NCBI GenBank assembly: GCA_035765895.1 | Contig: DASTWL010000008.1 | Location: 1 to 64,000, forward strand | Reading direction: 5' to 3' | Length of the DNA: 64,000 bases | From: Verrucomicrobiia bacterium | GTDB lineage: Bacteria; Verrucomicrobiota; Verrucomicrobiia; Limisphaerales; DSYF01 | Shown: positions 16,810 to 36,723 of the stretch, piece after piece | How the letters are laid out: every line of letters starts with the position of its first letter | How positions within the stretch are numbered: position 1 is the first letter of the stretch | Made by a program: the position numbers and the translations under genes | Notes under the pieces: generated by a model | What the model was told of the DNA's origin: nothing | Databases searched by the model: none | The model's input: only the letters and a program-made list of their open reading frames with translations

Positions 16810-18477
16810 TCAACTCCGATTCAGCGCACTCAGCACGGCACGGATCGATGCCAGCTCGATGTTCGTGTCCACACCCGCGCCCCAGCGCAGACGGCCGTCC
16901 GCGTGCTTCACCTGGATGTAGGCGATGGCGGAAGCGGTTTCGCCCGCGCTCAAGGCGTGTTCACTATAGTTGGCGATCTCAAATTTCGCGGTCCCGGCGG
17001 CCGTGAACGCCTGCACGAGGGCGGCGAGCGGACCGTTGCCTTCGCCGGATATCTCCACTGGCTTGCCATCACGCAGCAGACGCGCCCGGCAGCGGACGAC
17101 GCCGTTGCGGCTCTCGGTTTCAAACCCTTCGAGCTGCCACGGAAAATCGCGTTCGATGTATTCCCGCCAGAACATCGCCTTGAGTTCTGCGCCGTGGACC
17201 TCGCGGCCGAGGCGGTCCACTTCGTCGTTGGCGATGGGGCCAAACTCCCGCTGCATGTCCTTGGGCAGCACGACGCCGAATTCGGATTCGAGCAGGTAGG
17301 CCACGCCGCCCTTGCCGGACTGGCTGTTCACGCGGATGACTTCGCGATATTCGCGGCCGATGTCCGCCGGATCAATCGTGAGATACGGCACATCCCAGTG
17401 CGAACGCCCGCCTTTTTCCCATTCGGCCAGGCCCTTCTTGATGGCGTCCTGGTGCGAGCCGCTGAAGGCGGTGAAGACGAGTTCTCCGGCGTAAGGCTGG
17501 CGCGGCGGCACGGTCATGCCGGTGCAACGCTCGTAAACGTCCACGACGGCATTCAAATCCGAGAAATCCAGCTTTGGCTCGATGCCGTGCATGTAAAGGT
17601 TCAACGCCACGGTGACGATGTCCAAATTGCCGGTGCGTTCGCCGTTGCCGAAGAGCGTGCCCTCGACGCGCTCGGCGCCGGCAAGCAGGCCCAACTCGGT
17701 TGCGGCCACTCCGGTGCTGCGGTCGTTGTGCGTGTGCAGGCTGATGATGAGCGAATCGCGGTTCTTGAGATTGCGGCACATCCACTCGATCTGGTCGGCA
17801 TACACGTTCGGCATGGCGACCTCGACGGTGTCCGGCAAATTCAAAATCATCTTCCGCTCTGGCGTGGGCTGCCACACGTCCATGACGGCTTCGGATATTT
17901 CCTTGGCGAATTCCACCTCGGTCATGCTGAAACTTTCCGGCGAATACTGGAGCATGACCTCGGTGCCCTTGAGCCGGGGCAGGCGGTCCTTGATCATCTG
18001 CGCGCCCTTCACCGCGATGGCTTTGATTTCGTCCTTCGATTTCCCGAACACGACGCGGCGCTGGGCGGGCGAAGTCGAGTTATACAGGTGGATGATGACC
18101 TTCTTGGCACCGATCAACGATTCGACGGTGCGCTCGATCAAATCCTCCCGTGCCTGCACGAGCACCTGCAACCAGACGTCGTCCGGGGCGCGCTTCTCTT
18201 CGATGAGACGGCGGTTGAAGGTGAACTCCGTGTTCGAGGCGGAGGGGAACCCGACTTCAATTTCCTTGAAACCGCATTTCACGAGCGTGTGAAACAGCTC
18301 GAGCTTCTGCGACACGTTCATCGGCACGGCCAGGGCCTGGTTGCCATCGCGCAGGTCCACGCTGCACCAGCGGGGCGCGTGGGTGAGGACACGATTGGGC
18401 CATTGCCGGTCGGGCAACGCCACCGGCGGGAACGGTCGGTATTTCGCGGACGGGTTCTTGTGCATTGCGGTTTTCAT
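16810..18477 (-). CDS. leuA: 2-isopropylmalate synthase
   Basis: A 555-aa LeuA of the actinobacterial/fungal-like group (type 2), which condenses acetyl-CoA with 2-oxoisovalerate, the first committed step of leucine synthesis. Seen: 'KYRPFPPVALPDRQWPNR' at the N-terminus, the metal-binding 'CSVDLRDGNQAL', 'VGFPSAS', 'LIISLHTHNDRSTGVA' with the HxH pair, and 'GTLFGNGERTGNLD'. The C-terminal part is the LeuA allosteric domain, ending 'GVDTNIELASIRAVLSALNR'. It stands alone, without leuB, leuC or leuD. A leader peptide and attenuator lie upstream and a terminator follows, so it is a monocistronic, leucine-regulated unit. Confidence 0.95.
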   Translation of the reverse strand: MKTAMHKNPSAKYRPFPPVALPDRQWPNRVLTHAPRWCSVDLRDGNQALAVPMNVSQKLELFHTLVKCGFKEIEVGFPSASNTEFTFNRRLIEEKRAPDDVWLQVLVQAREDLIERTVESLIGAKKVIIHLYNSTSPAQRRVVFGKSKDEIKAIAVKGAQMIKDRLPRLKGTEVMLQYSPESFSMTEVEFAKEISEAVMDVWQPTPERKMILNLPDTVEVAMPNVYADQIEWMCRNLKNRDSLIISLHTHNDRSTGVAATELGLLAGAERVEGTLFGNGERTGNLDIVTVALNLYMHGIEPKLDFSDLNAVVDVYERCTGMTVPPRQPYAGELVFTAFSGSHQDAIKKGLAEWEKGGRSHWDVPYLTIDPADIGREYREVIRVNSQSGKGGVAYLLESEFGVVLPKDMQREFGPIANDEVDRLGREVHGAELKAMFWREYIERDFPWQLEGFETESRNGVVRCRARLLRDGKPVEISGEGNGPLAALVQAFTAAGTAKFEIANYSEHALSAGETASAIAYIQVKHADGRLRWGAGVDTNIELASIRAVLSALNRS

Positions 18478-18507
18478 TGTGTTGTTTTGGGCCGTCGGCG
18501 GCGAGGC

Positions 18508-18541
18508 AAAACAAAAACCCCACCGCCATCAGGCAGTGGGG
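18508..18541 (-). terminator. Attenuator terminator in the leuA leader
   Basis: On the minus strand CCCCACTGCC (18541-18532), a TGAT loop and GGCGGTGGGG (18527-18518) form a 10-bp stem with one wobble pair, followed by TTTTTGTTTT. It lies between the leader peptide stop and leuA. Its 5' arm can instead pair with a segment at the end of the leader peptide gene (18582-18571, GGCAGTCGGGGT), giving an antiterminator. This is the layout of an amino-acid attenuator. Confidence 0.85.
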
Positions 18542-18566
18542 TTTGGGAAAATCGTTTTGGATGAAC

Positions 18567-18635
18567 CTAGACCCCGACTGCCACGCTGCCCAGCAGCAGC
18601 GCGTTCAGCGAAAGTCGCAGGTTCGTGTTGTTCAT
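18567..18635 (-). CDS. leuL: leuA leader peptide (22 aa, Leu-rich)
   Basis: A 22-codon ORF, ATG at 18635 to TAG at 18567. Six residues are Leu (positions 6, 8, 10 and 13-15), including three consecutive CTG codons; Val occupies positions 18, 20 and 22. The Leu run overlaps the first of three alternative stems (CGCTGC at 18601-18596 with GCAGCG at 18589-18584). A ribosome stalled for lack of Leu-tRNA should mask that stem, let segment 2 (18582-18571) pair with segment 3 (18541-18532) and prevent the terminator. The mechanism is known from leu operons of enterobacteria; its operation here is inferred from sequence. The symbol leuL is by analogy. Confidence 0.82.
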   Translation of the reverse strand: MNNTNLRLSLNALLLGSVAVGV

Positions 18636-18644
18636 CGCGGACGA

Positions 18645-18673
18645 AAGGTAGGCAGCGGACGCCGGACAGTCAA
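18645..18673 (-). promoter_or_regulatory. Promoter of the leuA leader
   Basis: On the minus strand TTGACT (18673-18668) and TACCTT (18650-18645) are separated by exactly 17 bp, a good sigma-70-type match. The leader peptide ATG begins 10 bases after the -10 box, so the transcript would have almost no 5' untranslated region. Confidence 0.6.
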
Positions 18674-35718: not shown

Positions 35719-36723
35719 TTATCCGGGCTGGAATATATTCGCCAGACGCGGACCGATTTTGTCCAGCGCCAAAATTTCGCTGGCCGCCTTCAAATCCGCC
35801 GCGGCCTTGGGCATGCCGAAGACCGCGCTGCTCTGGCGGTCCTGGGCAATGGTGTGGTGGCCGCTCTCCCGCAACAAACGCAGGCCTTCCGCGCCGTCCC
35901 GGCCCATCCCCGTGAGCAGGATGCCAACCACTTCACCCTTCCAGAAATGTGCGACGCTCTTAAGAAACACGTCCACCGATGGCCGGTAGGAATAATCCAC
36001 GGGCGACCGCGTGTAACCCAGCCGCGTGGCGTTGGTGAACACCAGATGCTCCTCCCGTGCGGCCACCAGAACCGTTCCGGGTTCCGGACGGTCGCCCTCC
36101 TCCGCGAGGCGGACGGGGAGATGACAGTGCTGGCCGAGCCACGACGCCAGTCCTGCCGTGAACTGGGGATCCACGTGCTGAATGATGACCACCGCGGGGG
36201 CAAAGTGCGCCGGCAGCGCCTGCAAGATGCTGGCAATCGCCGCCGGCCCGCCCGCCGAGGCGCCGATGACCACCAGGGATTCCCGGGCGCGTGGTCCGGC
36301 CGGCTTGGTGTTGCCGTTGGCGGCCACGCGCGTCACGAGCTTGCTGATCTTGTCGAGCTTCTGGAGCAACGGCTGTCCGCCGTCGAGGCTGCCGCCGGGA
36401 TTGAGCACGGGCACGCTGACCGCGTCCAGCGCGCCGGCGCCCATGGCCTCGAACACCTGTGCCGTGTCGTCATGAATGTTCGCGCTCACAATGACGATGG
36501 CGCACGGGGTGGCGGCCATGATGCGGCGCGTGGCTTCGGCGCCGTTCATGTCGGGCATGACGAGATCCATCAGGATGGCGTCCGGCCGGTCCTGGGCACA
36601 ACGCGCGACGGCATCCGCGCCCGAGCGGGCGATCCAGGCGACCTCATGACGGCCGTTGCTGAGCACGGTTCGGCGCAGGGCCTCGGCCGCAAACAGCGTG
36701 TCGTTGACGATGCCGATTCTCAT
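35719..36723 (-). CDS. wspF: CheB/WspF-type protein-glutamate methylesterase
   Basis: A 334-aa CheB-family enzyme that removes methyl groups from the receptor, here WspA, after phosphorylation of its receiver. N-terminal receiver with Asp53 in '[13 protein letters not shown]'; C-terminal methylesterase with the catalytic Ser in '[13 protein letters not shown]', His in '[11 protein letters not shown]' and Asp in '[14 protein letters not shown]'. Start overlaps the wspE stop by 4 bp. In Pseudomonas, loss of WspF locks the pathway on. Name given from operon position and homology. Confidence 0.92.

Follow-up and report, generated by a model that had tools for sequence, protein, structure and literature searches.

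A probable leader-peptide attenuator of leuA conserved across a verrucomicrobial order

Introduction

Is transcription of leuA in Verrucomicrobiota controlled by a leader peptide that senses leucine? The question is raised by a stretch of the Verrucomicrobiia genome GCA_035765895.1 (order Limisphaerales), in which a short leucine-rich open reading frame (ORF) and a terminator hairpin separate leuA from its neighbour. The window analysed here comprises positions 1 to 64,000 of contig DASTWL010000008.1. An initial annotation, made from the letters of the window, read this arrangement as an attenuator of the trp/leu type. Attenuators of this type in enterobacteria combine a leader peptide rich in the regulated amino acid with four RNA regions (1–4) that form mutually exclusive antiterminator and terminator stems ahead of a biosynthetic target gene. 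Leader-peptide systems were known only from Proteobacteria and Actinobacteria until a survey in 2010 added Firmicutes (PMC2965389). In the open-licence PMC literature, a limited source in which absence is no proof, we found no paper on leader-peptide attenuation of this kind in Verrucomicrobia.

Results

Anatomy of the leuA leader in the window

The element occupies the minus strand, to which all window coordinates refer, between the end of an upstream gene on the same strand (18768) and the start of leuA (18477). The leuA gene (16810–18477) encodes a 2-isopropylmalate synthase of 555 amino acids and of the TIGR00970 type, scoring above the NCBIfam cut-offs for both TIGR00970 and NF002991. Read directly from the sequence, a -35 element TTGACT (18668–18673) is separated by 17 bp from a -10 element TACCTT (18645–18650), which ends 9 nt before the start codon of a leader ORF (18567–18635). 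This ORF, MNNTNLRLSLNALLLGSVAVGV, runs for 22 codons from ATG at 18635 to a TAG stop, and six of its codons specify leucine, three of them consecutively. Region 2, GGCAGTCGGGGTC (18570–18582), adjoins the stop codon and would form the 5' arm of the antiterminator by pairing with region 3, AAACCCCACTGCC (18532–18544); within these arms, GGCAGTCGGGGT (18582–18571) is complementary to CCCCACTGCC (18541–18532). Region 3 also supplies the 5' arm of the terminator, whose 3' arm is region 4, GGCGGTGGGGTTT (18515–18527), and the resulting hairpin (18544–18515) has 13 pairs and is followed by the T-rich tract TTGTTTTG (18507–18514). Direct reading of the minus strand thus confirmed the coordinates given for the proposed attenuator upstream of leuA. 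The stop codon and the terminator are separated by a spacer (18545–18566), the first bases of which, GTTCAT (18566–18561), are able to pair with the start region ATGAAC (18635–18630). Just 5' of the terminator stem, both in the window (18566–18545) and in relatives, lies a near-constant ACGATTT / GAATTT string; no pairing that we found explains it.

The element recurs across the order and precedes LeuA

Relatives of leuA were gathered from whole genomes and contigs, the closest named contigs belonging to Verrucomicrobia subdivision 3, Limisphaerales and Pedosphaera, and most are preceded by a leader of the same design, such as MNRNLNLLLTNALLNGAAVGF followed by a stop codon. We parsed 157 elements with homologues of the leader ORF, of which the 124 below 90% identity form the non-redundant set used for all anatomy statistics. 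A covariance model built from the elements of 26 relatives gave a single strong match in the window's own genome, namely the window element itself at 119.6 bits. Within the order, matches were found in 267 of 320 genomes, representing 107 of 118 genera and including 138 of the 154 genomes of good quality. A sample of 388 genomes across the phylum yielded only two strong matches, both within the order. Matches from outside the order were near background, and the two from the same class (L246 and L248) resembled simple terminators located behind unrelated genes when inspected. Judged by these matches, the element is specific to its clade and nearly universal within its order. Nearly all relatives have this arrangement at the corresponding position, which takes the window element beyond chance, and the prediction that leader ORF and stems would be conserved in related genomes is borne out across the order.

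Downstream sequence of 250 bases or more was available for 115 elements, and in every one of them the gene that follows encodes LeuA. The encoded proteins fall into two classes: 87 belong with the LeuA of the window, and 28 form another class that shares about 28% identity with it. The two representatives of this other class that were tested belong to TIGR00973 (leuA_bact). The sharing of one leader by two LeuA families suggests gene replacement or duplication with retention of the leader. Two genomes (G099, loci L146 and L147; G133, loci L134 and L145) carry one copy of the leader before each class, and loci L149–L159 are also among those grouped under the same leader preceding TIGR00970- and TIGR00973-type LeuA. 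In the window's own genome, no leader of this kind stands before hisG or trpE. Searching the leader against the 4227 families of Rfam, leader and T-box families included, gave no match, the best chance match reaching 18 bits where 55 were needed, and permissive E-values added only matches at chance level.

The leader has the features of a coding sequence and is very probably leaderless

Across the 124 elements, the leader ORF is 19–25 codons long, mostly 21–24, and begins with GTG in 102 cases and ATG in 22. Leucine makes up 30% of the residues after the start, a mean of 6.5 per roughly 22 codons drawn from all six leucine codons, and often occupies codons -8 to -10 and -13 to -17, counted from the stop. 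Stop codons vary among TGA, TAG and TAA, and indels within the ORF in a MAFFT alignment are of 3 or 6 nt. These properties bear on whether the RNA is translated at all: a leucine riboswitch or a protein-binding leader might merely resemble an ORF, and the strong constraint at the RNA level described below would suit such an element. We consider this very unlikely, since the ORF is open in nearly every element with its start codon at an almost fixed distance from the promoter, the stops are variable, leucine is specified so often and by every available codon, the indels preserve frame, and Rfam returned neither a riboswitch nor a T-box.

The promoter is regular as well. TTGAC occurs within -40 to -30 of the leader start in 108 of 124 elements (about 0.5% expected), mostly 34–39 nt before it, and the end of a TAnnnT motif lies 6 nt from the start codon in 53 elements and 7 nt in a further 10, figures that are somewhat inflated because start codons were picked partly by promoter score. 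A pyrimidine (C or T) occupies position -1 in 85% of the promoters, and +1 would be the purine of the start codon; the excess pairing between the start region and the spacer, discussed below, also starts at +1 and not upstream. Given this promoter (TTGAC, 17 bp, TAnnnT) 6–7 nt before the start, with a pyrimidine at -1 and a purine at +1, the leader mRNA is very probably leaderless, its start codon lying at or near +1. In Streptomyces lividans, which has leaderless leader peptides, transcription starts on average 6.3 nt after the -10 element (PMC8079986). The initial annotation had proposed a nearly leaderless RNA, with about 10 bases between the -10 box and the leader start; the spacing is 9 nt in the window and usually 6–7 nt in relatives, and the 124 aligned promoters strengthen the leaderless reading for the family beyond what the window by itself would suggest.

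Antiterminator and terminator are conserved with compensatory change

Region 2 has the form GGC-AGT-C-GGG-TTC just 5' of the stop codon and faces GAACCC(C)ACTGCC in region 3. We tabulated this 2:3 pairing at 13 positions, where most core pairs are kept in 89–98% of elements and one position is a conserved mismatch. At this position, stop-7, 113 of 122 elements have a pyrimidine as the third base of a Val codon; it faces C and stays unpaired, although the codon could end in G and pair without changing the residue. In at least 113 of 122, the Ala codon whose third base lies at stop-10 ends in A or G, both capable of pairing. These two synonymous sites are thus under selection on RNA pairing, which at stop-7 means selection for a mismatch. 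The effect of the mismatch is probably an antiterminator less stable than the terminator, whose stem begins 16–25 nt after the stop codon, mostly 17–22, in the 124 elements.

The initial annotation had called for a check of covariation in the two alternative stems. We compared the duplex energy of each element's own arms with that of arms exchanged between species, using 75 elements below 85% identity and 5000 permutations. Own arms paired more strongly for the terminator (3:4, z -15.7), the antiterminator (2:3, z -6.6, 0/5000) and the start region with the post-stop spacer (z -5.9, 0/5000), with control combinations mostly near 0 and two weak values of -2.0 and -2.4. These z values are upper estimates, elements being treated as independent apart from the redundancy filter. 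In a replication with 39 further elements, the corresponding values were -7.0, -5.2 and -1.9 (173/5000 for start:spacer). A stricter cut at under 75% identity (19 elements) gave -2.6 for start:spacer and -2.1 for 2:3, and under 70% identity the five sequences left gave no power. Compensatory change is therefore found in both alternative stems, and the comparison supports a mutually exclusive antiterminator and intrinsic terminator conserved in the family.

The terminator by itself is little proof of regulation. Scanning the stretch returned 2 terminator-like sites against 0.9 expected; such sites are not rare, and this one might simply end the upstream gene, with a leucine-rich ORF beside it by accident. 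That explanation is scarcely credible in view of the order-wide conservation, the compensatory change seen in both of the mutually exclusive stems, and the conserved promoter directly before the leader.

A long hairpin is predicted to protect region 2

Folded without the terminator, leader and spacer formed a single extended hairpin, and in 99% of elements region 2 was paired with upstream leader bases. In the window, the minimum-energy form of this hairpin extends from 18624 to 18563. Its 5' arm, region 1 (18595–18624, codons 4–14), contains both leucine clusters, and its 3' arm (18563–18590) holds region 2, the stop codon and the first bases of the spacer. The stem of the leader's CTG run described initially is present, but only as the tip of this much longer predicted structure. 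When synonymous codons were resampled from the pooled leaders, the folding energy rose from -33.3 to -27.8 kcal/mol (sd of means 0.31), a cost of 5.5 kcal/mol or about 18 SD, which indicates that synonymous leader codons are chosen for the predicted RNA fold. The model suggests that this protector stem (1:2) would hide region 2 in an untranslated leader. Typical members carry GAACCTGCTGC, spelling Asn-Leu-Leu, in region 1 as a sequence mimic of region 3, which may be why Asn precedes the first leucine run. An earlier definition of 1:2 pairing, restricted to the 24–27 nt that precede region 2, showed no sign of compensation in the swap test; in the long fold, region 1 starts further upstream.

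Bases of the start region pair with the spacer in 94% of predicted folds. This frequency is unremarkable by itself, as it remains 84–87% after either side is swapped between species, and the evidence for the pairing consequently rests on energies. Swapping the spacer weakens the fold by 1.2 and swapping the start region by 1.6 (sd 0.20); on these grounds the pairing is most simply modelled as the base of the protector hairpin. In the window, the minimum-energy form uses GAACCT:AGGTTC, with ATGAAC:GTTCAT as the alternative. Column covariation in a fixed register revealed no outstanding start:spacer pair, because the register slides.

The same pairing could instead act in the antiterminated form. 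There, start:spacer and 2:3 would coexist as an H-type pseudoknot and the free leaderless 5' end would help to hold the ON state, an arrangement consistent with the compensatory signal in the 75 elements, with excess pairing that begins at +1, and with the fact that start:spacer crosses 2:3 with loop lengths that would permit a pseudoknot. We regard the pseudoknot as improbable, since the pairing nested at the base of the protector is predicted so widely that it accounts for the signal without one, the signal weakens in the independent set, and no column pair stands out as the register shifts. More broadly, it is a tentative suggestion, and rather unlikely, that the 5' end of the leaderless mRNA is a structural part of the switch, its start codon pairing with post-stop bases as protector base or in a pseudoknot. 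If true, such pairing, whether by blocking late ribosome loading or through a pseudoknot, would make initiation a checkpoint of attenuation.

Predicted operation of the switch

The anatomy, its conservation, the compensatory changes, the selection on synonymous codons and the identity of the target gene lead us to consider it highly likely that the element is a ribosome-mediated transcription attenuator of the trp/leu type, and so a leucine sensor for leuA; translation of the leader, stalling and the response to leucine are what we infer from them. RNA polymerase would start at, or a few nucleotides from, the leader start codon, and a ribosome loading at the 5' end would translate the leucine-rich leader while the remaining leader RNA is synthesized. 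With ample Leu-tRNA, the ribosome would reach the stop codon and cover region 2, so that 3:4 forms and transcription terminates. With scarce Leu-tRNA, it would stall on the leucine codons in region 1 and leave region 2 free to form 2:3, blocking the terminator and allowing leuA to be transcribed. In the absence of a ribosome, the whole leader would fold into one hairpin from start codon to post-stop spacer, region 2 would be hidden and the terminator would form.

We modelled ribosome positions by masking footprints in the 124 elements and folding each RNA as far as region 3. A ribosome on the stop codon prevented 2:3 in every one of the 124 elements, whereas one on the first leucine codon allowed it in 100% and one on the last in 56%. 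A stall at the last leucine codon thus frees region 2 only in part in this model, which counts against the attenuator reading. Only 85 of 124 elements have a terminator whose stability exceeds that of the antiterminator, and folds of the completed RNA are dominated by the terminator nearly always. Since the terminator so regularly wins in the finished RNA, the switch would have to be kinetic, its outcome settled while the RNA is still being made, which is also how comparable attenuators work.

A probable sister attenuator precedes ilvB

In the window's own genome, ilvB (locus L256, G000:C68; 36429–34630, minus strand) is preceded, at about 36540–36670, by the leader MFGIVQQVTVALALVVTARAADGACRD with its stop codon, followed by the terminator AAGAACCCACGGCTG-gcaa-CGGTCGTGGGTTTTT. 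Its promoter, TTGACC-17-TAGCTT, ends 8 nt before the ATG. A Val-rich leader and a terminator were found at 27 of the 30 ilvB loci examined, this one included, the exceptions being L261, L263 and L270; most of these leaders are clearly one sequence type (relatives L259–L287) with an ORF rich in Val, Leu and Ile. The ilvB and leuA leaders are alike in promoter type, in a leader rich in branched-chain residues and in a conserved terminator, the ilvB start lying mostly 7–10 nt after the -10 element. They differ in that the ilvB leader is Val-rich rather than Leu-rich, has another stem sequence and scores 17 bits with the leuA model. By these features, ilvB has a probable second, parallel branched-chain attenuator with a near-leaderless start in most sampled relatives. 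A string resembling the ACGATTT / GAATTT of the leuA leaders, GATTTCGAC, sits before the ilvB terminators.

Discussion

The conserved leader peptide, antiterminator, terminator and promoter geometry across the order support the trp/leu reading first proposed for this locus. The long protector hairpin, the conserved mismatch of the antiterminator, the two LeuA families and the sister attenuator of ilvB go beyond that model. The element shares with the enterobacterial leu and trp attenuators an amino-acid-rich leader, regions 1–4, exclusive stems and a biosynthetic target gene. It differs from them in being another RNA family, as its lack of an Rfam match indicates, in a start codon at or near +1, in a region 2 that lies inside the leader ORF and adjoins the stop codon, and in a protector hairpin that reaches towards the start codon. 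A precedent for a leaderless leader peptide is trpL of Sinorhizobium meliloti, where the attenuator RNA begins with the ATG of the leader ORF, although that system differs in amino acid (tryptophan), lineage (Alphaproteobacteria) and sequence (PMC7298713).

Actinobacterial leuA leaders, including leuL1 of S. lividans, likewise place a Leu-rich leader before leuA, leaderless in S. lividans (PMC1262725; PMC8079986). The actinobacterial LEU element has no intrinsic terminator, and a pseudoknot has been proposed for it, with a base stem between the run of Leu codons and the Shine-Dalgarno sequence of leuA (PMC1262725). The order's element, in contrast, has a conserved intrinsic terminator and antiterminator, and by the LEU criterion it falls outside that group. 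A different leuA leader occurs in Verrucomicrobiaceae contigs (L048–L053 and L067), with the peptide MT..ALLLLSLRLT.G before the stop codon and with CCCTGCGACTTACGCNAGGGTAGGCGGCCCGCGTTTCCTCGTCATGC, lacking a U-tract terminator; it has TTCCTCGTC in common with an actinobacterial leuA upstream region (L104) and may be a leader of the LEU-element kind from outside Actinobacteria. Leu codons (Leu-Arg-Leu, CTNCGACTT) enclose a string, CGACT(T), in the window (18620–18612), in L083, L111 and L100, and in the Verrucomicrobiaceae leaders, a recurrence that spans leuA leaders from Alphaproteobacteria, Burkholderia and Verrucomicrobiota.

The mechanism proposed here is of a known kind. Its novelty lies in the phylum, in an RNA family that Rfam lacks, and in the service of one leader to two types of LeuA. 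That the same leader stands before enzyme families of about 28% identity implies that regulator and enzyme were recombined or exchanged while the putative leucine response was kept. For Verrucomicrobiota, the family adds an order-wide attenuator, and its more than 120 natural variants are available for the quantitative study of attenuation from leaderless RNA. The family and the ilvB attenuator together suggest that translation-coupled termination may govern how members of the order make branched-chain amino acids.
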